NCBI GenBank assembly: GCA_023231475.1
Contig: JALJEE010001228.1
Location: forward strand, 1-64,000
Reading direction: 5' to 3'
DNA from: Seison nebaliae
Lineage: Eukaryota; Rotifera; Pararotatoria; Seisonacea; Seisonidae
Length of the DNA: 64,000 bases
Both the position numbers and the translations under genes were made by a program. Under the pieces are notes generated by a model. That model was not told where the DNA came from and made no database searches. It was given only the letters and a program-made list of their open reading frames with translations. Each line of letters starts with the position of its first letter. Within the stretch, counting starts at the first letter, position 1. This document shows positions 2,068-45,699 of the stretch, one piece after another.

Positions 2068-4356
2068 GACTACAATCACACTTAATCAAAATGATGATAC
2101 TATTGAAAAATTTATTCTAAATAAAAAGAGAATGAAAGTTGTTGGGATTTATATTGAGTAATTTTATATTTATAAATTCGGAAATAGTTGCAATTCGTTT
2201 CCATGTATAGATATCATTTCAAACGGATAGAATTGGAAAATAATTAAAAACTCCTACTTCAATTACATCGACGACTGACCAACATGGCCAACAATGAATG
2301 ATAATACGAATGAGGGAAAGAAATGAGAATGAAGGAAAGAAACTCGTCATTAAGTTTGGGGAAAGGAAATTTTTGAAAAATGAAATTCGATTATCAAATA
2401 TTAGTTGGAGATACGAATATTGAGAAGTCGAAGTTGAAGGTCAAATTCATTTTGCGATGTCCAATAATCTTTTTTCGGAAATAATAACGACGAATTGTTT
2501 GAGGTGTTGGTGAGAGGTCGATGATGGCGATGATGATTTTTAATATTCTTATCCAGTTCTCTGTCTTTCCCCTCCAATTAGTTGGATGAGAGATGAGAAT
2601 GAGAAGAATTTATTTAATTTCATTTCTCCGAATTAGACGATTGAATGATTCTTGTTAAATTTTATTTACCAACACTATTTTTAGTGTAAGATAAGTTTTA
2701 TTATTGTTTCAACTAATAATTCCTTTCATCAATCCTCCTAAGACAATCGGAGGGCTTGTCTCTCAATAATTATAAACTGAATAATGATGTTCGATCATCG
2801 TGAGATGTCTCATCGATTAAAAGAATGATATGACTATTAGAATAAAGGAATTATTCTCACATTAATTGAATTCTAATTTAATCACTTACCATGAATAACA
2901 ATATATATATATCAATTTTATTCGATAATTTTACACTTTACAACACCTTTAGTCTAATTTACAGAATTCTCATTTAAAATTCTCATAATCATTTTCGTGA
3001 AGGATAATCAAGGTCAATCGATAAGTATTAGGTCAATTACAAATGGATCATCTTTTGAAATTAAAATCTTTTAAATTAATCGATCATACATAAAATATTT
3101 CTATTAGAAAATTATTGTCATAGAAAAATCGATTAATTTATCAGAAAAATTAAAATTTGTGAAATAGTTTCCATTGTTTTTCTTATTCGAATTATACAAA
3201 TAAATGGATACAGAAAATTTCTTTAAGAAATGGATAAAGATAAGAAAAGATTGGTCATTATCTTATTAAAGGACTTGACGCGAGATCAATCGATAGGTAA
3301 ATGAATGGAAAAAACAAATTAAAATGAAGTTTTCTTCTTAAAATTAATAAATTAGTGTAAATTTAACGAATAGAAAAACTGATGGAGGACCATCAATTAT
3401 CATGATCATAACGAATACAACAAATCACTTTTATGTTCTTCATAGTATGTAGTATGTGGTACATACAAATATATATTCACTTTAGAATTATCTATTTAAT
3501 TCGACAATTCTATCCATAAAATTTTGATTAAAATTTGAAAGTTTTTTACAAAATTTCTATTAAAATTTGAAATTTATTTATAATTTAATTAGAAAGAAAC
3601 TCACATTATTCATCTATTAAAATATTGTTATTTGATAGGGATAACAATACAATAAAATTAAAATGATTAATGTTCTCCTCAAATTCATTGCAAATCATCG
3701 AAATTCATGTTTGCAATAGTATTGAATTATTTGATAGCGACAGGAAGAAATTGCTCATTTCTAAATTAAACGTTTTATGCGTCGTTAAATTTTGATGAAG
3801 ATACGCATTTCCCAACATAACTTCGACATAATTTAAATTGCAATTTGCACGATTGTAATCGAAGGTTATCTGAGTAATTCATAAATTTCAAAACGGATTA
3901 TTTACCTCATATCATCATCTTTCCGTCTACCAACGTTTCAGTTCGATTACACGAGCAAGTCCAGAAAAGAATGAGAAGAAATCGAATTTTATTATGAAAA
4001 TGAACCAAAGATAAAAATGAGAAATTGAAAAGAAAACTTTTTCCTACGTTAATATTGGAACTGCCTATTACTTAAAGAAAATCCTTATTGGAAAATTAAT
4101 TAAAATTATAATTTTTCTATTAACTACTAAACTCATGAATGACGATGAGTGGGATGGTTTCGTCAAATCTAAACTTTCATTAGAAATTGTTAAAGGAATT
4201 CATCTTTCCAATTTAATGACAATTTTTTTTTCGTGTTTGACTGTGAGAAAAAACTAAACTACAACTAAAATTAGTTAGGTGAGAGAATGAATGGGAAACA
4301 TAAAGTTTTTTGAATGGAAAAGAAATCATTGAGACAATTCAAGGAATTTTTGTTCG
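2068..4356. other. Intergenic AT-rich spacer
   Basis: About 2.3 kb without a convincing reading frame on either strand. It contains a short (ta)n run near 2901-2911 and long A/T-biased stretches. I see no gene, RNA or mobile-element signature. Confidence 0.5.
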
Positions 4357-5628
4357 TCAGTTTTTCACTTCGAATGTTTGATAGCCCGATTTCGAATATT
4401 GTTTGATTACATCATTAATATCATTAGTCGTTTCAATCTTTTTATCATTACTAATAAAATCGGTTGCACCATTGAAATTTCCTCCACTTGGTTTGTTTTC
4501 ATAATAATTATTCATAAAATTCAAAGAAGAAGTATAATTGGTTGAACCATAAGTTGATGAAACATCTAATGCTTTCGAGGATGTACGACTATCGTCTGAC
4601 ATCTGATAGGACATGTTCGTCGGATATTGTAATTCGGCATTGTTCACGTTAATCCCGTGTCGTTGTAATGTATCATAGATGAAATTCTTCGTTCGAAGTT
4701 GTCCCGCGTATTTTTGCAAATACATTTGCGGGTTAATTTTAACGACACCCAAATTATGAATCTCTCGATTCACACAAGGCTCACCGCCATGCCATTGAAT
4801 GATCGTATTACGAACATTCTTCTCTTGTCTCACAGGTGCTCGTTGATAAAGTACACGTCGCTTTTGTTCTTTGTACGGTAACCATCGTTCGATGATGAAC
4901 GCTGGTGGTTTTGGTGGTAAAGGAGCCGAACGTTCGATAATCACTTTTCTTGGAGGAGGACATGGAGTGGGGAGACGTTTTTGAATAATTTTCATTGGAA
5001 TCTGTCTGGGTGTTTGTGGAGGATTCTCTCTGAGGACGACAGGTGCCGGTGATTTTGCGGCGACTGGTCGTTGTCGAATATGAATCGGAGGTTTACTATT
5101 TGGAGTAATCGGACGGAGTTCTTTAATAACTACTGGACCTGGTGGTGGAGGTGAATTGGGTTGAAGGAATCTTATTCCGATTTGTTGTTTATAAGGAATT
5201 GTGGAATTCGATTTTTTGTAAACAACTTCCGGTTGAGGATCATAATTAATTTCCTTACAATTCCTTGTCGTTGTTCCATTATTCCATTGCATAGATGTAG
5301 ATGTATCCGCCATAACCTCGTTATTGTACAAACCAGCTGCCCCGTCATTTTGTGAAAAATTATCAACATTCACTTCTTTCATTGATGATAATATATCATC
5401 AGCGTTAACGTTCATATGAGATGAAGCATAAGTATGACTATTAACATTACCAATTGTTGATGTAATATCAGTCATGTTATTATTCACATCAACACCAGTC
5501 ACATGTTGATCGATGTTCGGTGTTGCATCGATTTCCTTACTGGAAACATAGGACGTAGCGCCAAATCCATGAATGCCACCTCGTCCTCCCAATTCGGTTG
5601 CTGAAGCAAATTCGTTTGAAACTTTCAT
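4357..5628 (-). CDS. Proline-rich periodic IIERWLPY-motif protein, 423 aa
   Basis: Single exon, ATG at 5628, 423 residues. Residues ~1-150 are Asn/Asp/Ser/Thr-rich and lack clear domains. Residues ~155-275 are a run of degenerate ~15-residue units. Each has a proline cluster followed by a hydrophobic-charged core: GPVVIKELR, PIHIRQRP, APVVLREN, PMKIIQKR, RKVIIERS and AFIIERWLPY, then EQKRRVLYQRAP. The remainder is polar. Alternating Pro clusters and V/I-rich cores ending in charged residues recall the periodic repeats of cortical or cytoskeletal alveolin-like proteins. That is only a resemblance of style and I cannot name a family. No signal peptide and no membrane span. A structural, self-assembling role is inference. 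Confidence 0.65.
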   Translation of the reverse strand: MKVSNEFASATELGGRGGIHGFGATSYVSSKEIDATPNIDQHVTGVDVNNNMTDITSTIGNVNSHTYASSHMNVNADDILSSMKEVNVDNFSQNDGAAGLYNNEVMADTSTSMQWNNGTTTRNCKEINYDPQPEVVYKKSNSTIPYKQQIGIRFLQPNSPPPPGPVVIKELRPITPNSKPPIHIRQRPVAAKSPAPVVLRENPPQTPRQIPMKIIQKRLPTPCPPPRKVIIERSAPLPPKPPAFIIERWLPYKEQKRRVLYQRAPVRQEKNVRNTIIQWHGGEPCVNREIHNLGVVKINPQMYLQKYAGQLRTKNFIYDTLQRHGINVNNAELQYPTNMSYQMSDDSRTSSKALDVSSTYGSTNYTSSLNFMNNYYENKPSGGNFNGATDFISNDKKIETTNDINDVIKQYSKSGYQTFEVKN

Positions 5629-7164
5629 TTCTTAAAATGTATAATTATATAACCAGTGAAACTTGTTAACTATTCAGATTAGATGAACAATAAATACACG
5701 ATCAATTCGACAACGATTGTGAGATAATTGAATAATTCTTTTCATTCGATACACTTTATTAGTGGACATCTGTATTCTTGGTACAAGTACGAACACTTAT
5801 TGCTCCCCCCTCTTCATTTGTCTTCCAATGATACTCAGATTATTATGTAATTATAATTCTTCGAACAATTGTAAGTCTGAAACATTATACTCTCTAACTA
5901 TTTCCTCAATAAATGCATCAGATGTTAAGTATATCATATAATCATTGAAATTATATATACACACCACTAAATTGTAAATATCTCCGTTTTCCTCCCAAGA
6001 AATCAGTTCAAATGAATTTCAAATTCATATCAAACAATTTCAAATAATTTCAAATTTATCATTTTAATACCTAATACCTAATTCATTTCAAATAATTTCA
6101 AATTTATTATTCATTTATTTTAAAATCATCAAACTCTCGAACGTTTTCTTAAGACGACTTTTTTCATTCATAAATTTTAATCAAATTATTATGTTCAACC
6201 GTGACAGAAGTAACAAACAATCAACGAAACAACAACGTCGGAATTCTTATAACGGTTTTTTTGATATTTAATAGGAAAAAGAAACTAGTGAAATATTCAG
6301 TCTCATTATAAAATATATTCATTCGTTATCTACGATTTCAATATATGGAAATGAAGTAAACAGAAATGGAATATTCATAAGGAAAGGAATAATAGGAATA
6401 TAAGTTTTCCTTTTAGTTTCTAAAATTGCATGTTATTTCACTGAAATACAAATTATCAAAATAAAATATTAAGAGGAAATAGAGATTATTCTAGTTTCGA
6501 CGTTGTCACCATATACTTAATTTCCTTAGTTACGATTCCTTGTTGATTTTAGTAGGTTCTATGATATTCTCCATAATATTGAATCATAATAATGAAAATG
6601 TTTAATATTCAATAATAAGAAGAATCATGATGTTTGGAATTCCAAGATGTAGTCAAGGTTAATCAAACAAAAAACACAAGTTCGTTACTTAATTCTTTGA
6701 TTGATGATTATTTAACAAATTATTCTACAAAATAAATAAGATTATTTTCTAATGTTGCCCAATAAAATTTAGGAGTTTAGAAAAATAAGATTTATTAATA
6801 TATTTTATAAAATATTTTTACGAAACTATATTCGAGATTAAAAAAAGAAACAATTGTAAAAAATAGGACGAGAATAATCACATAAATATAATGTCTATTG
6901 TGAAATGTAAAAAAAACTGATATAGTTAGGGATAAATTCTGTATAACAATACAATAAAAAAAAGGATGATGAATGTCATTCGAAGAGAAATAAATAAATC
7001 GAACTTTTATCCAAAAAAAAATCATAGACGGAATTATTTATAAACACGCAAAGAAAGTGAAAAGAATAAATTTAAAAAAAAATCCGGGAGAGGTCTACCA
7101 AAAAAAAAGGAGAAAATATAATCAAAAAGAAAAAAAAGAATAAATTATCGATAAACGAATATCA
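5629..7164. other. Intergenic AT-rich spacer
   Basis: No convincing coding region. It has direct short AT-rich repeats (tttcaaataatttcaaattta-like near 6036-6115). The minus-strand frame at 6795-7025 is Phe/Ile-rich, as expected from A/T-rich DNA. Confidence 0.45.
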
Positions 7165-8436
7165 TTATCTGGAGCGGAAAGAATATTTGCCCAATTTCTT
7201 TTGATAAATTTCTATTTTATGTAATAAACATTTATTCCGATATTTTAATTCTTCGATTTCTTTTTTAGCATTGTCTAATTCGATTTTAGTTCTATTTTGA
7301 CTCTCTTTTTGTTTTGCACGTGAACGTTTTACTGCTTCGTTGTTTCTTTCCCGTTTCATTCGATAATCGGGCGAGTCTTTGGGAATGACTTGATTACCGA
7401 ATCGTGCGACGTTGGCTGATTCTTGAAGCATTGCATGTCGTTTATTTGATAATGAATGATTATCGATTGAATCATCAGTACTCTCATTTTTTCTTTTTCT
7501 GGGACGAAATTGATCAATCGAATAATCATCTTCATCATCATCGTCATTATTCAACGATGTGATTTCATATCGAGGTATTTTTTGTTGCTTCCTCTCATAA
7601 TGATGAGTATTGTATGGATGTCGATATGAGTTCCGTGTTTTGATCATTTCACTTTCATAATCACTTTCAAGTTCCGAATTGGACTGATAATCTTTCATTT
7701 TTGAATAATTGTTATATGATGATTTATTTGAATAATATATGACTTTAGTTGATCGATCATAATAATCGTGATTATATTGTCTATCTGTCTTCTCTCGTTC
7801 AACGAAACGATCCGAATTATTATGATTTCGATGATTGTTATAATTATTTCGATGATTCTGACCATTTATCGTTCCAATAATACTGTTATTATTGTTGTTG
7901 TTGTTGCTTAATCTCAAAACATTATTCTTCATATTGTAACTGTGAGTGGCTTGAGGAGAGTTATCTTCGGAAAATCTTTCATTCTCCTTCTTTCCTATTG
8001 GGGAAGTTGCTGTAATTGATAATGTTCCGGTAGAACTGGCAGTTGTTGAAGATGGCGTCTTCTCATCACTACTAACGATTGGAGTATAAATTAAACTATC
8101 GGAACGTGACATCGGGGAAATGGAAGAGAGCATTGGATTTAAACTCTCTTTAGTTAATGGATTCTCATTCTCACAATATGGCGGTGATGGACTGATGTTA
8201 TTAGGAACGAAGAGATTGGAATGTAATAAGTCTGAATGGTTTTCGGTATCATCTCCAATCGAACCTATGAGGTCAGAGAGGCAGTCGGTGGAGAAATCTT
8301 CTTCTCGAATAGAATCAGTTTTGAATCCATTTAACACCAATTCACGCAGAGATCGCTGACTTCGATATGATTGATAATTACGATCATTAATCATGTGTCT
8401 TTGTTCTTCCATACCCATCATCGGTTCTTTCATCAT
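7165..8436 (-). CDS. C/EBP-like bZIP transcription factor, 423 aa
   Basis: A nuclear DNA-binding factor. The C-terminal ~75 residues carry a bZIP. The basic region RERNNEAVKRSRAKQK has the N-N-x-A-V-x-x-S-R pattern of the C/EBP family. It is preceded by DSPDYRMK, like the D-E-Y-R lead-in of C/EBPs, and followed by a leucine-zipper-like coiled coil ending ~8 residues from the stop. The first ~330 residues are low complexity (Ser, Asn, His and Tyr rich, with an Asn run and an Asp/Glu cluster). The open frame extends upstream to 8556 but begins there with TTG and has a TGA just before; the first ATG is at 8436, giving 423 residues. Single exon. Known C/EBPs bind TTGCGCAA/TTACGTAA-type sites as dimers. 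The exact subtype (gamma-like or other) cannot be resolved. Confidence 0.8.
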   Translation of the reverse strand: MMKEPMMGMEEQRHMINDRNYQSYRSQRSLRELVLNGFKTDSIREEDFSTDCLSDLIGSIGDDTENHSDLLHSNLFVPNNISPSPPYCENENPLTKESLNPMLSSISPMSRSDSLIYTPIVSSDEKTPSSTTASSTGTLSITATSPIGKKENERFSEDNSPQATHSYNMKNNVLRLSNNNNNNNSIIGTINGQNHRNNYNNHRNHNNSDRFVEREKTDRQYNHDYYDRSTKVIYYSNKSSYNNYSKMKDYQSNSELESDYESEMIKTRNSYRHPYNTHHYERKQQKIPRYEITSLNNDDDDEDDYSIDQFRPRKRKNESTDDSIDNHSLSNKRHAMLQESANVARFGNQVIPKDSPDYRMKRERNNEAVKRSRAKQKESQNRTKIELDNAKKEIEELKYRNKCLLHKIEIYQKKLGKYSFRSR

Positions 8437-9674
8437 AATATTAATCGTTCGATTTCCCTCAATTTCCGACCAATCGATATTATACTTTTCCGTTGCTATG
8501 GTGATGGAGGTGATACCCGGTTTCCCTTTGGATACCTTGAAGCGTAGGAAAGACAAACTTCACTATCGTATGAAATTTTAAAATGAAATGAAGTTGTACA
8601 ATAAAGATTTCGCAACATTTTATACTTGTCCATTTGTATTTGTCTTTCCTCTCTTCCCGTACGTATAACCTGTATATGCAAGTTTATACATCGACATGTC
8701 GTTTCATGTTCATAAGCTTGTCTCTCTATTGCGTAATGTTTCTCTAATCGTCTCTACTTTCACCAATTCGAACGAATAGAGAATTATCTCTATTTGAATT
8801 TTTAGTTTTTCCTCTTATTAATAATTTGAAGAATTTGTTTAAATTTTTCTTGTTTATTTAATAATTGTTGATCGATTATTTTTTTTCATTTCCTTTTTAT
8901 TCTCTTATTGATTATCGAGTATTTTTCTTATGCATACATATCTGAGTTGTAGAGTTCTCCTCTACAAATACATATGTTCATCCACTCTTCCTTTCCTACA
9001 GTTGCCAAGTGTTGTATGTGCTAAGGTTATGGGAGTGCTCTCTCGGATTGCCCGACTTGAGAAATCGAATTTAAAACTCAATTCAATTAATGCTTTCAAA
9101 CTTATTCTCTTTTCCTATTAAATTGTATAAACATATAAACACACATAACACACACGAAAATACACACCCTTCACACATTCAATTTCCGATAAAGGTTCTT
9201 CTCACCTTTCTTGTTCAAATAAATTTTTATTTTTAAAGAGTCACCTTGAACACGTTGAAAATCTAGTTAGGAATACAACTAACATAATTTATATGAATCG
9301 ACATTTCACAGTTCTCTATTAAAATTAATTTGTTTAACTTATTTGAAGAATTTCTTTTCTTTTACATATTATATGTCATGTATTATATTACTCAATAGCA
9401 GTATATAGAAATTTACATCTATAAAAAATTATTTAAATAACCGTTATTTAATAGACTTACAATGTTGATGATAATTATCATCTCAATTAATTTAATGAAT
9501 TTTAACAGAAATTTCTTTTGGAATGAAACATTGTTTGATTAATTTTCAAATGTCATTTGTTTAACTTCCAATTTTGAGAAATCGTTTAAGCGTAAACGTT
9601 CAGTTTTCTGTAAAAAATTGAAATTTTAAGTTTTTTCTATTTTTAGTTGACTTTTTCCTTCTGTAAATTTTCCA
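8437..9674. other. Intergenic spacer
   Basis: About 1.2 kb. It has a short CA-rich microsatellite near 9137-9180 and otherwise AT-rich sequence. A 63-codon plus frame (8930-9121) is not convincing. It lies between the divergently oriented bZIP gene and the USP-like gene, so it should hold both promoters, but no element could be assigned. Confidence 0.45.
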
Positions 9675-11363
9675 ATGGTTGGTTGTTGTCTTGCTCGTCA
9701 TTGTCAGCGACAAAGCATCCCAGAATATGTGGTGGATCTCTTCCAATTTCCTTTTATGAATAATAAAGAAAAATTCAGTCCTTTACTCAAAACCAAATTT
9801 AAGGGTTCACTTCCATATTCTATTCCCAGAGGTTCCGTCAATCTTGTAGGAAGTTGTGCTTTAATTAGCGTGTTAGCCACGTTCCAAAGTGTTCCATATT
9901 TTTTGTTAAGTGTGTTTGAGAATCATAAAGGAGATGATTGGAATGTCATTATTGATTACGCTGACGAGAAGATCAATAATCCAATAAGATTAGCACCAAC
10001 TCATCATACGATGGGAGGTAATTACTTGGCAATGGAAATATTACGATCATACGATATAAATCCCAGAAATTTTCGAATTTCTGATTGTCATTACAAAAAA
10101 AACTATGTGGAATATTTCGTATATTTAAGTCACGAACGTTATCCTCGTGAACAAACAACAGCCGTTTCCCAATTTCTTGACAAGACAGCGACGTTGATGA
10201 AATTTAAAAGTATTTGCCCTAAAAGAAATCGTAGAATGTTGCATACATGTTATAGTACATGTATGTCACATAGAGGTAACGATATAGAATTGATGTTGAA
10301 CAATTTATTTCCTTGGAGTAAAAGTGAAATTTATTCTGATGATAAATTAAACGGAAAATTTGAAAGAGAAGAATTTTTTGAAGAGGATTTCTTACGTAAT
10401 TTCTTTCTTATTCGTCGAAGTATTAGTTTATTGACGGTTAGCGTTAATTATGAGAATAATGATTACGATCATCGTATTCCACATTATGACAGAATAACGG
10501 CACTTGGAACCTTTCAATTCTTCAGTGAATCAGCACGAAATTTTATAAGGGAATTTACTGATCATTTTCATTTTAAATGGCTGTATATTACATATCGAGG
10601 AGCATTTGTTCGAAGAAATAACAAATTGAAACAAAGAGTAGGTGTAGAACAATATTATTTTAGAAATGTTGCAAGAGTGATTGAGAAGGGAATAAAATCA
10701 TCCGATGAAATAGTTCTAAAAAGGTTAAAGAAGATTTTGGTACCTGTAAAATATTTAGGTGTATATTTCCAACCTTCAAGTCCACTTAATAATTTGAATA
10801 TATTTGAGAAAGAATTAAAAACGATTCATAATATTCAAGATAGTTATGACATTACAGGATTTATTTTCAATCATGAAGAATCTGGTTTTCAACTTGATCT
10901 TCGATACACTTCAGTATTAGAAATAAATGAAACACACCCGTCAAATGAATTACATAAGGAATGTGTTGAAAATTATAATAATCACATGAAAGATGGAATA
11001 AGGAAGAGATATGTACATACAGATAAGAAATATTCTTCGATAGAAAGAATGAGAATTCTGACAACAATATCACAGATCATATGTCAAAACTTTCTGGGAA
11101 TAAATGATGAAACAAAAAAAATATATTCTTCTTCAACCTCTCATGCTGTCGCAATTGTTCGATCAACAGATAAAAGAAGTTGGTACCATATATTTGGAAA
11201 TCTGGTGCATGAGATTAAAGACATGAAACGAGTATTACCGGCATATCGATATGAGTCTCTTCACGGAATAGTCCTCTCTTCAAACAAACATTATACTCAA
11301 TTGTTACAAGAATGGTACACCATTTTAAATTCCAACTTTAGAATAAGAAAGACGAATGTTTAA
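9675..11363 (+). CDS. Divergent ubiquitin-specific-protease-like protein, 562 aa
   Basis: Single exon, ATG at 9675, 562 residues. Near the N-terminus, GSVNLVGSCALISVL (Cys61) aligns with the catalytic Cys box of USP/C19 deubiquitinases (usual pattern G-L-x-N-L-G-N-T-C-x-x-N). Near the C-terminus, SHAVAIVRS (His490) followed by SWYHIFGN resembles the USP His box (G-H-Y-x-A-Y-x-R followed by W-Y-x-F-x-D). The ~430-residue spacing suits a USP catalytic core. The match is weak between the boxes, and the canonical Asn-Thr before the Cys and the Gly before the His are replaced. It may be a fast-evolving active enzyme, a pseudo-enzyme, or a chance resemblance. No signal peptide or membrane span. The call is inference from two short motifs in the right order. 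Confidence 0.5.
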   Translation: MVGCCLARHCQRQSIPEYVVDLFQFPFMNNKEKFSPLLKTKFKGSLPYSIPRGSVNLVGSCALISVLATFQSVPYFLLSVFENHKGDDWNVIIDYADEKINNPIRLAPTHHTMGGNYLAMEILRSYDINPRNFRISDCHYKKNYVEYFVYLSHERYPREQTTAVSQFLDKTATLMKFKSICPKRNRRMLHTCYSTCMSHRGNDIELMLNNLFPWSKSEIYSDDKLNGKFEREEFFEEDFLRNFFLIRRSISLLTVSVNYENNDYDHRIPHYDRITALGTFQFFSESARNFIREFTDHFHFKWLYITYRGAFVRRNNKLKQRVGVEQYYFRNVARVIEKGIKSSDEIVLKRLKKILVPVKYLGVYFQPSSPLNNLNIFEKELKTIHNIQDSYDITGFIFNHEESGFQLDLRYTSVLEINETHPSNELHKECVENYNNHMKDGIRKRYVHTDKKYSSIERMRILTTISQIICQNFLGINDETKKIYSSSTSHAVAIVRSTDKRSWYHIFGNLVHEIKDMKRVLPAYRYESLHGIVLSSNKHYTQLLQEWYTILNSNFRIRKTNV

Positions 11364-11857: not shown

Positions 11858-11865
11858 TAACGTAA
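11858..11865 (+). promoter_or_regulatory. TAACGTAA element upstream of gene A
   Basis: The sequence here reads ATAACGTAATGGCATGG. It corresponds to the element TTACGTAATGTCATGA found ahead of genes B and C, and lies about 100 bases before the start codon in all three. TTACGTAA is a known bZIP (PAR/C/EBP-class) site. Function is inferred only from conservation. Confidence 0.35.
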
Positions 11866-11967
11866 TGGCATGGGAATAAACGTCATCCATAAACGGTAGT
11901 ATATAAGAATACGATGAATCTCAAAATATATATCAAATTCAAATCTTTTAATAAGAAAACAACCGAA

Positions 11968-13237
11968 ATGTTTCGTGGTAAGAACAGTCATGTACAGTTA
12001 GGATTATAGAAGTTTTCATAGTTCATTCTTTCTTCAAAGATTCCTTGAACGGAAAAAAAAACCTCAAGCAGGTGGTCCGATTTATATAATCATCTTCATT
12101 GTTATTGTAATAGCCGTTGGTGGTGGACTTGGAGGAGCACTTGGTTAGATTTTTAGTTACTTAGATTTAAGTAATTCGATGTTAAAGGTAGTGGAGGTGG
12201 AAGTGGAGGCGGAAATGGCGGTGGAAATTCGAATTCGAATTCAAATAACAACAATGTTGTTGTGAATATTAATGTTTAAATTTAATGCATTATTATAAGA
12301 TATAAATTTTATTCTTCATCAGCCCACCCAATCCGCACCAAAAATTGAGGATGCAACAAAAACAAATCTGATAAGCACAGATAAAATTGACCCGATAACA
12401 GAAACGTCAAACGAACTTTCAACGGGGTCTGTACAGCAAAGAGATAGTACTAGAAAGACAGAGACTACAACCGTGGATTCACAGGAATCAACCGACCCTA
12501 ATTTGAAGAGTAGCAGAGAAGAGCTATCTACAAGCATGGATCCCCGGACAACAAGAAGTCAAACATCCACCATGGACCCTCGGACATCAGAAGCTTCAAC
12601 GGCTTTTATGGATCTATGGACAACAAGAAGTCGAACATCCACTATGGATCCATGGACAACAAGGGATTCCAGAAGCACGATGGACCCTTGGACAGCAGAA
12701 GTTTCAACGAGTTTTATGGACCCATGGACAACAAAAGGTCCTAGAACCACAATGGATCCTTGGACAACAAGAAGCACGATGGATCCTTGGCCAACTAGAC
12801 GTCCCAGAACCACAATGGATCCATGGACAATAAGAACTCTCAGAACCACGATGGATCCTTGGACAACAGGACGTCCTAGAAGGACGATGGATCCTTGGAC
12901 AACAAGACGTCCTAGAAGCACGATGGATCCTTGGACAACAAGACGTCCTAGAAGGACAATGGATCCTTGGACAACAAGACGTCCTAGAAGCACGATGGAT
13001 CCTTGGACAACAAGACGTCCTAGAAGCACGATGGATCCTTGGACAACAAGACGTCCTAGAACCACGATGGATCCTTGGCCAACAAGACCTTTCAGAACCA
13101 CGATGGATCCTTGGCCAATAAGAGATTCAACAACTACCATGGACCCCTGGACAACAAGACGTTCAACAACCACAATGGATCCCTGGACAACCAGAACTTC
13201 AACCACCACCATGATGATGATGGGTAACGGCGATTGA
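11968..13237 (+). CDS. Gene A: membrane-anchored Thr-rich repeat protein (12-residue MDPWTTR repeats), 377 aa
   Basis: Four exons inferred: 11968-11996, 12040-12143, 12188-12273, 12323-13237; introns of 43, 44 and 49 nt; all phases agree. The protein starts with a short basic tail (FLERKKKPQAGG), then one hydrophobic span (PIYIIIFIVIVIAV) ending in a Gly-rich GGGLGGA, a Gly/Ser/Asn linker, a charged Thr/Ser segment, and then 19 units of a 12-residue repeat of form M-D-P-W-T-T-R-x-P-R-x-T. Units in the middle (about 12870-13080) are nearly identical; units at both ends are degraded, and one unit is short (9 residues). By the positive-inside rule the repeats would be extracellular and could be heavily O-glycosylated, hence mucin-like. 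Exons 1-3 match genes B and C in length pattern and sequence type; exon 4 is unrelated to theirs. I know of no named family. The membrane-anchored surface role is inference. Confidence 0.75.
12539..13212 (+). repeat. 36-bp tandem repeat, ~19 copies, within gene A
   Basis: A 36-bp unit starting atggatccttgg encodes 12 residues. Copies between about 12870 and 13080 differ by only a few bases; those at the borders are much more diverged, including acquired or lost residues. This is the pattern expected of expansion by unequal crossing-over or replication slippage from the centre. The period is a multiple of three, so the frame is kept. Confidence 0.95.
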
Positions 13238-15182
13238 ACATTCATTGTACAAGAAACAAATATCGTAGGAAGTAAAATTAGCGAACTTTACTTGACACAG
13301 CTTTATATATGTTGATTCTTAGATGATTTTTAGATATGTCTGATTTTTAGTTGGTTCTCACAACTAATCGCCTATAATTATTTATTATGAATAAAGAAGT
13401 TTATATTAAACGAATTAAATTGTTCTAACTATTTATTGCTTATTCCTTTCCAGAATATAATAATAATACAGAAAAATGATCCCTTGCAATAATAATTTAA
13501 TTTCTTTCTTGTGGACTTATTTGACCGAAGATATTTGAATCCTTTTAAGAATAATTCCCATATTTTTTCCCCTACTCTATACCCTCATGTTACAAAAGAA
13601 AAATATTTAAATTGAAAAATTATAGTTTGCAAATCAAATTCATAGTAGAACAGTCTATATTATATGATTTTATTATATATTAGTTCACCGTATATCACAT
13701 ATTAGTCGCAGCATTATTTAGGGTTTTTTTGATCGGGCTATGTCTATATGAACTGGGCATTATACTGGATTTTTATTTGAATGTCCACTGTAATGAACGA
13801 ATTGACAAAATTCTCACTGTCAGTAACCATTTCAAAATGTAAGGTGGTAAACATTTTTGAGCTATGTTACTTATCATTACCTGATTTTCACACGGCCAAA
13901 TTGAATTAATACAATTGACACAGATTTGTAATTAATGATATTTATAATGACTGAAGTTACGAAGAAAATAACGTTAATTTAATGATCCAAACGAATGGCC
14001 GATGGGAAGTTAATCGCATAAATGTTCCTATCACCAAAAACCTGTAAAATTACATCAATATCGATAAGTTTCCAAGACATCCTAGGTATAAAGATATATC
14101 TTTGATAAAAGATACACAGGTCTCCGGTAAATACTCCATAATCGAAATTATAATGATATATAACTCAACTTATCTACCATTACCAATTATGAAAACTTCA
14201 AAATTCATTTCATATGGCAAACATCTTCTTATCTTTATATTAGCGTGCCTTTTAATAAACTATTAAGTTGTTTTTTTCTACTAATTCATTAGTCGTATTA
14301 TCACTCTCCTATCAAGTCATGTCGAATTACTCTTCTAAATTACCTCGCTTACATACTTATTTGTCTTCTTATTGATAGTTTCTCGTGGTCCTTTTCTAAG
14401 TTGCAGTCATTTCTGATATTCTTCCTGTTCTTCTTTTATAAACGATTGGGATGATGGACATAAATAAAAAACTAAAAAAATTTTCAATATTTCGATTAGT
14501 GACTTAAAATCGATTTTTTCAGATTTTCAGATATGATTATAATGATATTATACAAATATGTAAAAATTAACTGTGTATACATCGAAATTCGAATATCTGA
14601 TATATAAGAAGATTCGATGTTCTTATATATCATGTTTTTCTATGGTTTATACTAATCGTAATTGTAAAAGTTCTTTAATCTAATTGTAGCCTTGAGAGAC
14701 TTTGGACGGAAATATTGAAGTGATACCTTCGTAATCTTCGGTTATTCATTGTTTGTTATTGTTTAGGAACAAAATGAAGTTAATGTTACGACCGAGGTAG
14801 TTTAGAGAGACGACGAATAATTGACGAGAGAACATGGCAAACTTACATATTCGACAATATAAATTTAAAATTATAGATATCTGAAAGAAAAAATCAATAA
14901 ATATTGAAGCTTTATACAAAACAAAGAATATTTGAATATTGAAATATATATTTAGAATATTTAGAATATATAAATTTTAATGCAAATTTGTATGCAACTT
15001 TCATAAGTTGTATAGAACGTTGAACATGGATGTATGTGTTCTCTAAGCTAGAGTCCATGACTTATAATTTATTACATGGTGTAGTTGTTGTACACTAATA
15101 TACCCCATAATAAATGACTAACAAATTTTAATCGAAAATGTAGCAACTTAGAAGAAACGGAAGTTAAATTTTCTAAGATTTG
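13238..15182. other. Spacer between genes A and B, upstream part of a duplicated block
   Basis: No gene recognised. The part from about 14600 is detectably similar to 17800-18480 upstream of gene C. Shared words include tttttctatggtttatact, attgtttaggaac, ttaatttgtatgcaactt-like text and aaatgtagcaactt. This shows that a unit of about 3.1-3.2 kb was tandemly duplicated and has since diverged. Confidence 0.55.
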
Positions 15183-15190
15183 TTACGTAA
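15183..15190 (+). promoter_or_regulatory. TTACGTAA palindrome upstream of gene B
   Basis: Perfect palindrome in TTACGTAATGTCATGA, starting 99 bases before the ATG of gene B. Gene C has the same sequence at the same distance, and gene A has a one-base variant. It is embedded in sequence that is otherwise more diverged between B and C, which suggests constraint. Confidence 0.4.
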
Positions 15191-15281
15191 TGTCATGAGT
15201 TGAATTAGCTTAAATAAGATGAGTATGAAATAGAAATGTTTAGGGAAAAATATATTAATCTTTCGAAAAGAACCTGTCGAA

Positions 15282-16131
15282 ATGTTTCTTAGCAAAAATG
15301 ACCAAGTTAAGTTAGGAATTTTGAATCCAATTTGATATTGGTATATCCATTAAGATTTCTGGAGAGAAAGAAAAAGCCACAGGGAGGTGGAATAATAAAA
15401 ATCGTCGTTTTCATTATATTCATTACAATAAGCATTGCTGGTGGCATAGGAGGAGCCAGTTACTATTAGTTAAGATCTTGTGAACACTATATTTTTACAC
15501 AGGTGGAGGAGAATCAAATTCCAATAATAATGACAATAACATTGCTATTATTGTCAATGTTTAGTTTTTCTTTTCTTTTTAATTTAGTTTCTTCTTCGTT
15601 TAGCCAACTGATAGTGATGTTCCGTATGCCATCTATACATCTTACAACCTTGAAAGTGAATCGACCGTGACCGATATTTCCAATCGAGGAACATTTCAAC
15701 CGTTGGAAACTTCAAGTTACCCATGGTGGGAAACCTCTGATGTTTCGGGGGAAACCACCTCTGAAAACCCCTGGGAAGAAAGCACAATGGATTCAGGCCT
15801 CGAAACTACCAATTATTTATTGTGGCCACCTGAAGAAGATTTGGAGGATAGCTCAGAGGGAAGGTGGGAAGGTAGTTCAGATTCATGGCAGAAAATTACT
15901 ACTTATCAACAATGGGAACCTACAACTTATCAACAATGGGAACCTACAACTTATCAACAATGGGAACCTATTACTTATCAACAGAGCAAAATGACCACAA
16001 ATACTGACTCCACAACTACTGTTACAGGACGAATTACTACTACTACTACTACTACTGGGCAGATGGAAACTAATAGTGTTAGCGAGCTGGAAACTACAGT
16101 GATGATTATGATGGGAACTGGTGACAAGTAA
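15282..16131 (+). CDS. Gene B: membrane-anchored Thr/Trp-rich repeat protein, 238 aa
   Basis: Four exons: 15282-15310, 15355-15458, 15503-15558, 15604-16131; introns of 44, 44 and 45 nt; phases agree. N-terminal basic tail MFLSKNDQVK then FLERKKKPQGGG, a single hydrophobic span (IIKIVVFIIFITISIAGG), a Gly/Ser/Asn linker and an IAIIVNPTDSDV segment shared with gene C. Exon 4 then encodes a different ectodomain: Ser/Glu/Trp/Thr-rich, with an 8-residue repeat TTYQQWEP (three to four copies, about 15895-15985) and a Thr run. No Cys. The predicted topology is N-in, C-out. The N-terminal module is nearly identical to gene C at DNA level including introns, but exon 4 is unrelated from codon 6 onward. 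No known family. Confidence 0.75.
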
Positions 16132-18382
16132 TAATTTTCATGATATACTCATATAATACATACATTGTGTAAAATTGATGATCTAACAACGTATTCTTCG
16201 TCATAAAAAAAATTGTATAAAATTCTTTAAAATTTTTTCTGGAATGTGCGGAAGGCGTTACGCAATTTTATTGAATTTACGATTAACTCGATTATATAAA
16301 TAAAAAATATTAAAAGTTATTTTGGGAAGAATTATTTTTAAATTTCAAAAATTCTCGGATAAATTTGCTACTCTAACTTTGTAAGCTTTAGATAATCGCC
16401 CATTTTAGAACATTATACCATTATACCATACTATGAATAAGCATTTTAACTAGAATCAGAATCTTCCACTTAGGAGTTTACATTTAACTGTTTAATAATT
16501 TTTTCATTACCTCTCCAAAACGATTAGTTGTCCAGTTTCATTAAACAATTTAAAGAAGTGAAGGTTTATGTTTATAAAATCAAATTGTTTAAAAAATTAA
16601 ATTACCGTCTACATGTACAAACCGTCTATATTTCGAAGACAATTCGGATGAAGCTTTTCTCGTTACACTGTTTGTGATTTAGTAAAGAAAGTCGAGAAAC
16701 AGAAATACAAGAAATGCGAATAATACCTCTAAATTTTGTTCATTATTGAGAACAAAAGAACGCAGTACTTGGATTATAAATATTGAAGAATTCAGAAAAT
16801 TCTTTCTTTGTTCCACATTCGATTTTTCCTTATCACATCGGGTGGTGAATACGCAAAATATGCCTGCGTTCAACTATCATAATAGTATATGAACTACGAT
16901 CCTTGTTGTTCCAAATGAATCTGAAGAAAACGCATGGTGAACACGATGTCTGTTTATGTATTATGGAGAAATTGAAGGAGTCATAATTTCAAATGATAGT
17001 TCAGTTTATTAATGATGTATTAACTGGTAATGTTCATCACAGTAACGTCATATTATTCTCAATCACTTCTCTTAAGATTGATAAAAATGATTGAGCAAAT
17101 TACACATTACTAACACTTACGCAAAAGAGTTATATTCGTCGTAATTACAATTCACATAATAAGGGGAAAATAATAAAGGTATTTTACTGATGAAATTTCT
17201 GATATTTCATTTCAAATTTCTCGTATTCTAAATTCGAAATTTATTCTCTTTTTCATGGACACATTGAAAACGATTAGTTCTGTCAGTATGGAACATGGAA
17301 TCGTTATATTATTTAACGAAGCAATTTATAAATATTCTCTTTCACTTATCAACTAAAAGACGGATCCAAGAAATCCGATATTTTTCATATAGATAAAGGA
17401 ATAAGACAGCGATGTATTTTGTCGCTTAGGGCACGATTAGAGGGTTTCTCGTCGTCTCTTCAATTTTCCTTCGGTTATTATTCGATTCATTTTCCTCATT
17501 TTGTCGATGAGACGCTATGTCTGTCCTACGATAAGAGCGAACCGAGTGAAGTAACAGAAATTGCATCTATTCCAAGTAGTGGTCGAACTAACGTGGATAT
17601 AATTTGGTTCCGTAAAAGTTCTATAACTTATCGTATTTATTTGTCTAACAGTAAGAATTTAACGATTTTTCCCCAATGTCCATTTCTCCGTCGTAATAAT
17701 TCCTTATATTCTCCGAAGAATTAGGTTATATACCGTGATATTGTCATATATGACTATTATAGATATGTTTTCCAGAAATCGCAACAAATTAATCGTATAT
17801 AGATGGAATTTACTTATATATCATATTTTTTCTATGGTTTATACTTTCCTTTCCTATTCAATAGGACCGTAAATTATCCGTTATCCGTCATTATGGAAAA
17901 TATTGAAATGAAATTGTTATGTTTCAATTGATTATAATCTCTTACTGTTAGTTTTATCTAAAAGCTCATTCTTATTGTTTAGGAACGCAACATAGTTAAT
18001 GGAAAACGTAGTTAAGGGAAGACTAAACGGAGTAATTGGTTAAACTTGAAAACATATCATGACAAGAAAACTCTAATCAATAATCGATAATATACATTAA
18101 AATTATAAACATATAGAAGAAGTTATTTATAGGACAGTCAATAAACATCGAATCTTTATATATAAGAAAATAATAGTTCAATATTGAAGGATAACGCAAG
18201 GTTAATTTGTATGCAACTTACAAGTCGCAACTTGTTATGTAATTATTATACGAATTAGAACATAGTTCTACGCGTTTTCTAACCCAGAGCTAATTTTAGA
18301 TATATTGATGAAGGGGATTCCCCTAATTGATGACCAAATGTAGCAACTTCGAAATAACGGAAATCAATTTTCTTACAATTTC
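16132..18382. other. Spacer between genes B and C
   Basis: No convincing gene. A plus-strand open stretch at 17419-17724 (101 codons, starting with TTG) has less AT-biased composition than its surroundings and could be a gene remnant or an exon, but I recognise nothing in it. Around 16520-16580 the text matches 19610-19680 downstream of gene C, marking the 3' side of the ~3.1 kb duplicated block. Confidence 0.45.
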
Positions 18383-18390
18383 TTACGTAA
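18383..18390 (+). promoter_or_regulatory. TTACGTAA palindrome upstream of gene C
   Basis: Same 16-base sequence TTACGTAATGTCATGA and same distance (99 bases to the ATG) as in gene B. Candidate bZIP-binding site; evidence is conservation only. Confidence 0.4.
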
Positions 18391-18481
18391 TGTCATGAAC
18401 TGAACTATCTTAAATAAAATGACTATAGAATTTAAATTTTAACTAAAAGTAAAATAATCTTTCATAAAGACTCCTATCGAG

Positions 18482-19325
18482 ATGTTTCTTAGCAAAAATG
18501 ACCAAGTTAAGTTAGGAATTTTGAATCCAATTTGATATTGGTATATCCATTAAGATTTCTGGAGAGAAAGAAAAAGCCACAGGGAGGTGGAATAATTAAA
18601 ATCGTCGTTTTCATTATATTCATTACAATAAGCATTGCTGGTGGCATTGGAGGAGCCAGTTACTATTAGTTAAGATCTTGTGAACACTATATTTTTACAC
18701 AGGTGGAGGAGGATCAAATTCCAATAATAATGACAATAACATTGCTATTATTGTCAATGTTTAGTTTTTCTTTTCTTTTTAATTTAGTTTCTTCTTCGTT
18801 TAGCCAACTGATAGTGATGTGAAGCGTACAGGGGGATATACTACTACTGCTGTAGGGGGAGAAAAAACTACATATCCAACTCAAAGGGGATATACTACTA
18901 CTGCTCTATGGGGAGATGAAACTACAAATCCACCTGAATGGGGATATACTACTACTGCTCTACGGGGAGATGAAACTACAAATCCACCTGAAGGGGGATA
19001 TACTACTGCTGCTGCGAGGGGAGATACTACTGTTGCAGCAAGGGGAGATAATACTGCTGCAGCAAGGGGAGATACTACTGCAGCAGGGGGACATACTACT
19101 ATTGCAGCATGGAGACATACTACTACTGCAGCATGGAGACATACTACTACTGCTGTAGGGGGAGAAGAAACTACATATCCACCAGAATGGGACGATACTA
19201 CTGCTGCTGTTGGGGGAGATACTACTGCAGCAAGGGGAGATACTACTGCTGAACCAATGGAAACTTCTAGTGTTGGAGAGGACACTACCAGGGCGATAGA
19301 CGTTACGTATTGGAAATGGTGGTAA
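18482..19325 (+). CDS. Gene C: membrane-anchored Thr/Ala/Gly repeat protein with RGD tripeptides, 236 aa
   Basis: Four exons: 18482-18510, 18555-18658, 18703-18758, 18804-19325; introns of 44, 44 and 45 nt. The N-terminal module (basic tail, one membrane span, Gly/Asn linker, PTDSDV) is the same as gene B apart from one Glu-to-Gly change in the linker. Exon 4 encodes ~18-residue units (GYTTTALRGDETTNPPEG-like) followed by ~8-residue units (ARGDTTAA, WRHTTTAA). It contains five RGD tripeptides and almost no aliphatic residues other than Ala. The Thr-rich, Cys-free ectodomain suggests an O-glycosylated mucin-like surface protein. Whether RGD is used for integrin-type adhesion is unknown; in a G-A-R-D-T repeat it may be fortuitous. 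Confidence 0.75.
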
Positions 19326-22974: not shown

Positions 22975-26934
<3,960 letters not shown>

Positions 26935-41124: not shown

Positions 41125-41297
41125 TTTTATAGAACTATATTTTTTATTCATTTCCATTCAACATAACTTCTTTTTTATTTAATCGACAACTGAAACATTC
41201 TAAAGAAGAAAAAATTTTTTTTCAAAAAAACTCATCGAATTTTATTTATTCCATTAATATTTAACAGAATTCCATTCTATTTATATTAGTTGTGAGA

Positions 41298-44200
41298 ATG
41301 AGGTTGGATCTGTTGAAAGATCGAATTGCAGAGAGAATTTTAATTTTGAATGATATTTCCGTGGGATTATTAACGAGATTATATAACATCAAACTCAATT
41401 TACAAACGAATAATTATAAACCGCAAATTTTAAATGATAATAATCTGGATGGATTAAAGAAGGAAGTTGAGAAGAAATATCCACTCAATCATTCACAAGT
41501 CATCGATCTTTATCGACCATTAGTGACGAGACGGAATGAAATCCGAAAACAATTATCTTTATATTACGACACATTTTCGGATGTATTCGATTATCATATC
41601 AAATCGACGGAATTGTTAGCAGAGATTAATGTGGTTGAATTGTTGTTCAATTTGAAAACGACGACTCGATTGACGATGAGTTTTTTGAATTTCCTTTCAA
41701 ATTTCATTTGTGTTCATTTACTCTTCTCCACCATTCCCAATCGGAAATTAGTCACTACATTTTATATCGCTGTCGATATAGTGAATGATCATCGTCCTGA
41801 TGAATTACATCATAAATTGGAGCAATTCATTCACGAATATGAACGACCAATTGGTCAATTACAGAAAGAACTTTACACTTATTCCAACACATTCAAATTA
41901 TGTTTATCATCATTACGAGAATTATGTGGACAACGATTTGGATCCATCGACAAATGGAAGACATCATATTTATTCAATGTTACTATTAATGCACCACAAT
42001 TAGATACGATATCATTATATGATCATGTAGCATGGCAACTCATCGCACAATCGTCATTAGAGAAATGGATAATTTTAATAACAGTCGTTTGTCCAAAAAC
42101 TTTGGAGTCGGGAGATGTGGAAGATTGTCTTCGTTTAGCCGTTTCACCATATTCCTCTTTATGTATCTCATTATTTCGCGACGAATTATTACCTGCACCA
42201 CATGTGCACGCTTTCTTAATGGAACATTTATTCCATGAGAAGAATGAAATGAGAAGAATTCAAGATATGATTCGAGATGCTCATGTCGATTCAGTGAAAC
42301 GAGCAAATTATATTCATCTCGAACGACGTCATTATCTCATGAAACAATTGACGAATTTAGTGAATGTTTTTCGAGAGATGCCATCGGCTTTAGCACCTAA
42401 AGCACTTCTTTGTTATTCAGCCATTCAATATTCGATGGATGAAGCTATTTGGTTAATTCGTCATTATGAATGGACATTAACTCCTCAATCACTCGTATGT
42501 TTATCTCGTGGTGGTGTGGGAGCAGCATGTCAAAAGAATAGTTCAACAAATGTTCAAATGACATCTCAAATGATTGAGAGAAAGAAATCGGAAGTGTTAG
42601 ATAAATCTTTACCAAAACTTTTATATTTATGTGAAGAATTGAAATGTCTTTTACTTCAACATTCTTCCATTTCAACATCATCAATTATCCCATTATATTA
42701 TATTCGTCTACTTCAATCAAATCATTTCGTTTCACTCGTTCTTAATATCAAAACCATTTACGATTGTACAATTCGAGCGAATACATCGAGTTTTGGTGAG
42801 TCGACTATTCAAATCGTACCTAACGAACCATCAACCACATCGACAAAGAAAGTCAAATTGGATTATTATACCAATATTCTTTTCAATAATTTATTAACTA
42901 ATATTTATTGTTTGAATATCGAACGACATCAGGAGAATGATGAAAATAAGAATTTAGATGAGAGTTTAGATGAAGAGAATACCCTTCAACGAAATGGGAA
43001 ATCTGATGGAAATAAATCGCCATTACATCGTCATAATCAAGAATTAATCAAATCATATTCCATCGATTCATTACGATATCAGATATTGTGTTCATATCAA
43101 AAAAATCATGGAAATTTCGATGAGAATCGTGAGAGTTTAATGAGAATTTTGAATGAGATTGACACATATTCACTTTTGATTGAAACGAATTCGAAACAAT
43201 TGACAGATTTATGTGATTTATCCATTTTCTGTTTTTATGACGTTCAATTGAATACTCGTTTCCAATTATGCTTGAGAGATGTTCGACATTCATCATTCAT
43301 TATCGTCTTTCCATTAATCTGTCGACATTTCCTCAATTCCACTCATCGAATGTGTCCCGAAGAAATTGGAATGATTGGTGATCGTAGTTTTGCCACCGCC
43401 GATACATTTTTGACGGAGATATCTCGATCAATTCGAACTTATCTTTGTGATATTGCTGCCACACGCTGTATCGATACAGAACAACAAGAACAAGAAGCAT
43501 CAGCGGCTATAATCGCTTGTGATGAATTAACAGATTCATTAAATAATTTGCAAAAAGAAGCCAGTTTAAAAAAGAATACATTTAGAAGAGGAAAAAAGAA
43601 GAAGAAGAAACGACAAAATAATCATCATCAAATTGTTCATTCATTAGGATATCATTTTACTCGTTCTGATTTTTTAGTTCAGACAAACGAAGTAAGTAAT
43701 TCAGCAATTAATCGACTTTTCTCTGAAGCTCAAATGTCCACGAAAGATATCGGTTATTCATCCCAATCATTCCGTATGGAACATTTACATGACAATCTCA
43801 CTTATTTGAAACGACAACAATTCACTGATATGTTATCGTCTATAGCACAAGTGGATAAATTGAATGTTTGGACACAACAATTATCACCGTCCGATTATTT
43901 TGAACATTGGTTGGAAAGGAAATTGATTCGAATGGCGTCTGCCATATCAACTGATCGTCATCGAGATTTCCAAGATAATTTATGTTGTAAACGACCACAG
44001 AATCTTCTAAGAATTCTCATTCATTATATGGAGACTGTACAATTCGCTTCAAATCGGATTCGGGTAGATCTCAGTCCAATGTTATCCGATATTCTCTTAC
44101 AAGAAACACAGAAAGAAGATATTTTCAAATTGGAGACGATAACGGACATATTTGCCCGATTCTATCATCTCCGTATTATCGAAGGTGCAGCTGATGGTCT

Positions 44201-45699
44201 CGTTGTTTATTCGCGACATCGAGAATGTTTTGTCAATCTCCAACATATGATTCGACGATACAAAACTATCAATCTCAATGTCACGTCGAAAGAGAAGGAA
44301 AATAAAGACAATTCAAATTCAACTTCCAACTCATCAAATTCCACATCTCCTTTCAACACACCATACACTCCATCCTCCATATTATCATCGAATGTCAGTT
44401 CTGATGGGGCGATTAGAGGATGGACATTTTTCCCCTCTAAAATTCTTAAAGGATTTAAATTCGATGCGGAAGAATATACGAATTTCTATGAATTATTAGC
44501 ATTAGCGACCGTAATTGGCGTTTACGGGGTTGAATATATTTTCAATAAATTCTCCGAACATATTCGATTGCTTTGGAGACAAATGTTGGATTGTGTAGAG
44601 AATAATTCAGAGAGTATCTCTTCCTTCGCTAACAATTATACGGATCATGAACGGATGGAAGAGATTGTCAATAAAATGAAACAAATTCCTGATTTTCTTA
44701 TTCATCTCAAACACATCGGTTTATTACTTCATTTCAAACAATTATTACAAGCCGCAATTAAACGCGTCCTTCTTAAACGACAAACGTATTTATTGAAATC
44801 ATTAAATCAATTCCCATCGAAACCGTTTGATGATAATAATAAAAAACAAAATGTTTCTATTCTCTTTTCTATGTTTATTTAAAAATTTAATTATTTTCTC
44901 TTCTCTAATAATAGATGTTAATGGAACAATTGAAGTGTTCCGTTGGATTGACAAAGATGTTCGATCGTCTTTTTATTAAATATATTCAAACTCATTATGA
45001 AAATTATTCAAGTTCACTCTATTTATTCTATATGTGTTTCATTAGAATTTTTTTAGAAAAACAGAAATTAGAATTAATTCAATCAATTCTCTTATTTCTT
45101 GCTTCAACTATCAGATATTTAGCCGATGATCCAAAATCCATTTATCTACCATCATATGGTGCTCATTGTAACAATATTCATTGTATTGGCAGAGCATTGA
45201 ATTTCTTGGTGGAGAATATGAAATATGCTTGGAATATAACTAATGAAGATATTCTCTCATTCTCCGAACATTTTTTAGCAGTTTCTTTTTTTTTATCTCC
45301 AATCAATAATTAATAAACTTCTTTTGATTAGATGAGTTCGTTAAATATTCAACGATTAGGTTTCCAATCGGAAAGACGATTAAATTTATTCAATCAAACT
45401 CATCTCTTCCCCTCCATCAGTTCCCTCCAATTGAACTTCAATTCGAAATTCATGTCCATCAATTCAAATTTCACTCACTCCTTCACTACTCAACAACATT
45501 CGCTATTGAGAATTCGATATTCTCTTCTCATTCTTCTCGATCTGGTTCGTCTCCAATTTATTTACAAGAAAAATTTATTTATTTTTAGATCGTTAAAGAA
45601 TGTCCATTTCTTCATTTGAGTAATATCGAAATTTATCTGCCAACTCCTCTCCTCATCACAGCTTATAATTATTTGACAACTCAAGAATATTTATTTTAA
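41298..45699 (+). CDS. NCKAP1: NCKAP1/HEM (GEX-3), WAVE regulatory complex subunit, 1,414 aa
   Basis: Exons 41298-44852, 44915-45280, 45332-45544, 45589-45699; introns of 62, 51 and 44 nt; all phases agree. NCKAP1 (Nap1/HEM) pairs with CYFIP in the WAVE complex, which relays Rac signals to Arp2/3 actin assembly. Collinear family blocks include AERILILNDISVGLLTRLYNI at the N-terminus, LETLSRGD-position LDTISLYDHVAWQ, LFRDELLPA, LRRHYEW-type IWLIRHYEW, CDLSIFCFYD, STHRMCPEEIGMIGDRSF, and GAHCNNIHCIGRALN near the C-terminus, then VKECPFLHLSN. It is longer than the usual ~1,120 residues because of polar insertions (for example Asn/Glu-rich near 42900-43050, Lys-rich near 43590 and Ser/Asn-rich near 44290-44400). 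The open frame starts with GTG at 41292; the ATG at 41298 fits the family start. Its stop is one base from the stop of the convergent gene. Confidence 0.93.

Follow-up and report, generated by a model that had tools for sequence, protein, structure and literature searches.

A Five-Gene Family of Putative Single-Span Membrane Proteins with Diversified Threonine-Rich Repeat Domains in the Rotifer Seison nebaliae

Results

Gene Layout and Splicing

Seison nebaliae is a tiny marine rotifer of the seisonids. According to PMC8351084, seisonids live on Nebalia crustaceans, and two lineages of the species were found in the pooled sample used for genome sequencing. The window, i.e., the whole 64,000-nucleotide stretch of DNA analysed, comprises bases 1-64000 of contig C261 of the 36.0-Mb, 846-contig S. 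nebaliae assembly used for all genome searches. Three genes, named A, B, and C, lie in it on the forward strand (Table 1). A previous examination of the letters of the window (the sequence-only reading) had described them as sharing a four-exon layout and this was confirmed, with exons 1 and 2 of 29 and 104 nt, introns of 43–49 nt that all follow the GT..AG rule, and open reading frames throughout. The donors start with GTTA or GTTT. A 48-nt intron with the ends GTTAAT and TTTGTAG, located between conserved kinase stretches of the window's protein kinase gene, is a single example that indicates that introns of this type occur in this genome. The spliced product of gene B is identical to the deposited "hypothetical protein SNEBB_011225 [Seison nebaliae]" over all 238 residues (100% identity); thus, the same splice sites were picked by another annotation. 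Splicing would also take place in A, C, and the two further genes described below, D and E, and the five genes are presumed to be expressed in common.

Table 1. Positions of the genes and associated features in the window (other two members by their own coordinates).
Feature	Position	Strand	Description
Putative promoter element TWACGTAATGKCATG, gene A	11858..11872	+	Exact match, 110 nt before ATG
Putative promoter element, gene B	15183..15197	+	Exact match, 99 nt before ATG
Putative promoter element, gene C	18383..18397	+	Exact match, 99 nt before ATG
Putative promoter element, other two members	L009 4571; L012 3457	coding strand	Exact match
Gene A	11968-13237	+	377 aa; exons 29/104/86/915 nt; introns 43/44/49 nt
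Gene A anchor module	11968..12273	+	Exons 11968-11996, 12040-12143, 12188-12273
Gene A exon 4	12323..13237	+	Thr-rich; 12-residue MDPWTTR-type units
Gene B	15282-16131	+	238 aa; exons 29/104/56/528 nt; introns 44/44/45 nt
Gene B anchor module	15282..15558	+	Exons 15282-15310, 15355-15458, 15503-15558
Gene B exon 4	15604..16131	+	Thr-rich; 8-residue TTYQQWEP units
Gene C	18482-19325	+	236 aa; exons 29/104/56/522 nt; introns 44/44/45 nt
Gene C anchor module	18482..18758	+	Exons 18482-18510, 18555-18658, 18703-18758
Gene C exon 4	18804..19325	+	Thr-rich repeats; five RGD motifs
B–C shared tract	15282..15620 (B) = 18482..18820 (C)	+	336/339 identical, 3 mismatches

Upstream of the genes, a 570-codon open frame with no Pfam match (9651-11363, forward strand) directly precedes gene A, and a bZIP_2 gene (7165-8559, reverse strand; Pfam E 1.3e-7) is located about 3.4 kb before it. 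The window also includes two ordinary animal genes, the protein kinase gene (24051-25307, reverse strand) and an Nckap1 gene (41265-44882, forward strand; E 4.7e-149). Its first 157 nucleotides (1-157) match a repeat present in L010 and L013, where it lies beside retroelement-like frames.

Family Members in the Genome

The search for further copies of the 5′ module (exons 1 to 3) that the sequence-only reading had proposed was carried out, and its count of three genes had to be raised to five: A, B, and C on C261, D on C396, and E on C5. The four-exon layout is the same in D (exons 29/104/65/693 nt, introns 59/44/45 nt, 296 aa) and E (exons 29/107/56/753 nt, introns 44/44/52 nt, 314 aa), and all 15 introns of the five members have intact ends. 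The pattern FL[ED]RKKKPQ and protein E, used as queries against the assembly, each led to the same five places. Protein A matched A, B, C, and D and missed E, the DNA of the C module and that of D each matched B, C, D, and E, and the A module DNA, extended by 138 nt upstream, matched only A. Gene A is the more distant member; at the protein level its module is 60% identical to those of B and C and 51% identical to that of D. The A module reached 91.4 bits when compared with a model built from the other four, a value equalled by 0 of 2000 segment shuffles, which together with the identical layout of D and E indicates that the kinship is more than chance.

Several other candidates were discarded. 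A match to the pattern on C685, with two mismatches, has an in-frame stop as read by eye, and the reversed pattern used as control produced two matches. A gene on C347 (L010 2587-4226) has a similar plan, consisting of a short basic N terminus, a span, GGG, and long Asp/Glu repeats. It matched module A at E 1.6e-4 and module E at E 8.1e-5 with the composition correction off, but its 16.0 bits against the family model were equalled by 75 of 2000 segment shuffles and it runs on in frame without introns 2 and 3; it was left out of the family. The weak matches of protein A (E of 0.05 or higher), located on C736, on C20, and at other places, are of low complexity, that on C736 being a long proline/methionine-rich frame. 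D and E were not considered alleles of the window genes because their flanks match the window over limited stretches only, namely the gene and upstream regions, the 3′ end of B, and one stretch of 37 nt. A 270-nt stretch located downstream of E is also present near D and on C681 (L009 7577-8319, L012 5009-5267, L013 2108-2886). The C681 version is 90% identical to D over 781 nt and 81% identical to E over 272 nt, and a copy of the gene was not found on C681. This contig also has frames that, with a YADD motif, resemble a reverse transcriptase.

When compared with 5.8 billion proteins, the whole B protein (197 candidates), its residues 1-68 (39 candidates), and a profile of the five members (among the best 7980 scored) all returned B alone among the candidates kept by these capped searches, and A, C, D, and E did not appear among the deposited proteins in them; they require shared 5-residue words and similar length and can miss distant or longer relatives. 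None of the five members (0/5) matched a Pfam family at E 0.1, mucin-associated domains included, and a PDB sequence search gave 0 matches. Among the papers listed on rotifers, Seison, and helminth mucin-like families, no such rotifer family was apparent from the titles and the opening portions of the abstracts. The sequence-only reading knew of no named family with this design, in agreement with the Pfam, PDB, and protein search results.

Protein Architecture and Topology

The five proteins have, in this order, basic residues, one hydrophobic span, a Gly/Asn linker, and the Thr-rich product of the last exon, and all lack cysteine. In a hydropathy scan, the best 19-residue mean was 2.35–2.72 and the next best did not exceed 0.56 in any of the five members, in agreement with the one membrane span per protein suggested before. 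A basic stop-transfer tail had also been assigned to exon 2, and this had to be corrected: the basic cluster precedes the span, the net charge being +3 to +5 on the N-terminal side of the span and 0 to −2 over the 15 residues that follow it. According to the positive-inside rule, basic residues on the N side are typical of a signal anchor that leaves the following repeats outside. The position of the basic residues makes this arrangement likelier than a stop-transfer tail, and the module is probably a signal anchor with the repeats facing outwards. The reverse topology was also considered. DPW motifs in epsins bind clathrin adaptors, and the many DPW units of A could do the same if the repeats were cytosolic; this is extremely unlikely, given that all five proteins have their basic residues N-terminal to the span and that DPW repeats were seen in A only. 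Another possibility is that the N-terminal module is a long cleaved signal peptide and the product is a secreted mucus, cement, or silk-like material, of which the foot glands are a possible source. Signal peptidase suits small residues at the cut site, and the span ends in such residues (GGA-S, GGA-L, read by eye); repetitive, cysteine-free, Thr-rich chains also suit a secreted material. However, the approximately 22 residues with a basic cluster before the span and the hydrophobic stretch of about 19 residues are more anchor-like, and we consider secretion a realistic but rather doubtful alternative to the signal anchor.

Exon 4 codes for 28–37% Ser plus Thr and 8 to 40 Trp in the five members. 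Tandem repeats were present in all of them, with units of 12 amino acids in A, 8 in B, D, and E, and 18 and others in C. A Trp followed within six residues by a Thr/Ser-Thr pair was found at 14 of the 17 Trp of A (shuffle frequency 0.0005, n = 2000) and 38 of the 40 of E (0), as well as at 7/9 in D (0.0295), 6/9 in B (0.054), and 5/8 in C (0.056). This theme is clear in A and E, where repeats count multiple times, and is only suggestive in B and C. Among the 77 frames of at least 150 codons in 197,557 bases of this genome, a non-random set of 24 sources with the window among them, the five exon 4s were the only ones with at least 18% Thr. N-glycosylation sequons were absent from A to D (0) and E has one, located inside the module. 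An AlphaFold2 model of SNEBB_011225 generated from the single sequence had a mean pLDDT of 33.8. Inside the repeats of A, 4, 5, and 6 variable sites fall at codon positions 1, 2, and 3, respectively, and comparisons of unit pairs gave 73 synonymous and 95 non-synonymous single differences; a clear signal of coding constraint was not found by these two counts.

A Shared Promoter Element

The 15-bp sequence TWACGTAATGKCATG occurs exactly five times in the 36-Mb assembly, each time on the coding strand of a family member and 95–110 nt before its ATG. The pattern was written from these sites, and the evidence of the four similar promoters is therefore partly circular. Gene A is the informative case because no other sequence was matched by its module plus 138 nt of upstream DNA. 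With up to one mismatch allowed, the pattern produced 9 and 2 matches versus 2 and 2 for the reversed control. Six further sites have one mismatch, and no family-like gene was seen by eye within the 900 nt that follow them. Our best guess is that the five genes are co-regulated. The element resembles, in our judgment, a TTACGTAA-type bZIP site, and we take the basic region of the bZIP_2 gene (7165-8559) to resemble that of C/EBP. As read by eye, an ATG inside the element starts a reading frame of 2–7 codons in every one of the five genes; if transcribed, this frame could serve as a short upstream frame.

Probable Conversion of the Anchor and Divergence of Exon 4

The tract shared by B and C begins with the start codon, stops 17 nt inside exon 4, and includes the introns, whose 133 bases are identical. 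The base that precedes the ATG already differs. In the 146 nt upstream, identity is 113/145 (78%) for B–C, 113/146 for B–D, and 118/146 for C–D; farther upstream, B–C identity is 61–62% with many gaps, slightly above the 53–54% of B–D, and from this comparison B and C may have been slightly closer to each other even before they acquired the tract. Across the 168 variable sites of the four aligned genes B, C, D, and E, the longest run of agreement between B and C covers 40 sites and is reached by 3 of 10,000 permutations, while the longest runs of the other five pairs were equalled in 2788 to 9966 of 10,000. The tract looks like a short, recent gene-conversion-like event that copied the anchor, although an assembly error is conceivable. 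For pairs other than B–C, the introns are 59–86% identical and exons 1-3 have a dN/dS of 0.23–0.34 (pairs among B, C, D, and E).

The ends of exon 4 are 70% identical between B and C over 94 nt that extend across the stop, and the 3′ flanks of these genes are 79% identical over 75 nt. The ends of the B and E exons are 79% identical over 67 nt and the heads of the B and D exons 71% over 63 nt; the repeats of B–D, B–E, C–E, and D–E align weakly. No alignment was obtained between the middles of B and C, between C and D, or between A and any of the other four. The last exons had been described as unrelated, which is at odds with the B–C and B–E ends and the B–D heads. No additional copy of exon 4 of either B or C turned up in searches of the 36-Mb assembly that can miss low-complexity relatives; E as query matched B, and B as query missed E. 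Since heads, ends, and 3′ flanks can be aligned and the B and C exon 4s were found as single copies, the repeat ectodomains look to have diverged in place rather than to have been swapped. For A, with an exon 4 that aligns with no other, divergence in place is an assumption. The intron identities and the module dN/dS indicate that the repeat exon changed more than the neighbouring sequence.

The swapping of ectodomains, proposed in the sequence-only reading, would have joined the anchor repeatedly to repeat exons from elsewhere. It would account for the 336 of 339 identical positions of B and C followed by an abrupt difference and for the unalignable exon 4 of A. However, the tract starts at an ATG inside upstream DNA that is 78% identical, the exon ends and 3′ flanks of B and C can be aligned, and neither exon 4 was detected a second time within the sensitivity stated above for low-complexity relatives; the pattern is rather that of an anchor homogenised between B and C, and swapping is unlikely. 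It was also considered that B is the sole working gene and that A, C, D, and E are decaying, with frames kept open by accident of the repeats. B is the only member found among the deposited proteins searched, the ends of B and C can be aligned as DNA but differ as protein, and the Met-rich end is missing from D. Nevertheless, the frames and the ends of all 15 introns are intact, the promoter element is present in all five genes, and the module dN/dS is below 1, making decay very unlikely.

Discussion

The best explanation is that the five genes form a family, known so far only in Seison, of single-span membrane proteins with mucin-like outer domains, to which we assign a probability of about 0.5 on the basis of sequence analysis. 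The occurrence of five members with one layout supports the membrane mucin-like family, in which the anchor is constant and the Thr-rich outer part has diversified, that had been suggested from the window. The proteins might act in recognition, mating, or immune evasion, as put forward in the sequence-only reading. In the proposed model, exons 1-3 would be a constant module composed of a short cytosolic N terminus that closes with RKKKPQ, a span that is Gly-rich at its end, and the Gly/Asn linker. Exon 4 would supply a cysteine-free Thr/Ser/Trp-rich repeat domain, presumably located outside the cell as part of a surface coat and probably O-glycosylated. This domain would diverge in place as repeat units are gained, lost, and homogenised, while the anchor would be maintained by purifying selection and would have been copied recently between B and C. 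Against this explanation stand the near absence of N-glycosylation sequons, the lack of alignment of the A exon 4 with any other, the return of B alone among the deposited proteins searched, and the spread of variable sites over codon positions (4, 5, 6) in the repeats of A.

A more ambitious proposal, which we regard as rather unlikely, is that the genes are a diversity-generating surface family for attachment or for strain or mate recognition in a crustacean-dwelling animal. If so, the repeat ectodomains change much faster than the adjoining introns, conversion bounded by the start codon and by the beginning of the repeat exon keeps the module uniform, and the promoter element is private to the family, in a species reported to have two lineages. 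The five genes may be a compact example of divergence in an orphan surface-type family, with a repeat exon that changes in place, a homogenised anchor, and a private element. If expressed at the sites of contact with Nebalia, they would be a molecular handle on how seisonids deal with their host. Seisonids adjoin the parasitic acanthocephalans in the preferred tree of PMC8351084. The tract ends, the element, and the list of members lead to straightforward predictions of what sequencing reads of the two reported S. nebaliae lineages would show.

Membrane mucins have one span and Thr/Ser-rich tandem repeats outside. The Seison proteins have Ser/Thr-rich tandem repeats and a hydrophobic span, as expected of membrane mucins in a broad sense, but their anchor is N-terminal, they lack cysteine, and they have no mucin-associated domain in Pfam. 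Nematode cuticle collagens are a gene family in which an N-terminal anchor is followed by a low-complexity repeat domain, a plan also found in the Seison family; unlike them, the Seison proteins have no collagen Pfam match and no cysteine. The micro-exon genes of schistosomes have most of their coding sequence in short symmetric exons. The likeness lies in the short 5′ exons, the diversified product, and the host-associated worm, but in Seison most of the coding sequence is in exon 4 (522–915 nt), and the lengths of exons 1-3 (29; 104/107; 56/65/86 nt) are in no case a multiple of three.

By analogy, the nearest system that would work alike is SmPoMuc of Schistosoma mansoni. According to PMC2576457 and PMC3757033, SmPoMuc is a small lineage-specific multigene family with repeat domains; some copies are clustered and others dispersed, and members recombine or undergo gene conversion with one another. 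A SmPoMuc gene is divided into 15 exons of about 60 bp by introns of about 550 bp, with repeats derived from an amplified exon 2 near the 5′ end (PMC2576457); in contrast, the Seison genes have four exons, introns of 43–59 nt, and repeats inside one 3′ exon. As the gene structure is different and a sequence link was not found in protein searches limited by shared 5-residue words and similar length, the Seison family was not filed as a member of SmPoMuc. Judged by this comparison, repeat-bearing mucin families with conversion, such as SmPoMuc, are already known, and what appears to be new is a lineage-specific family in Seison.
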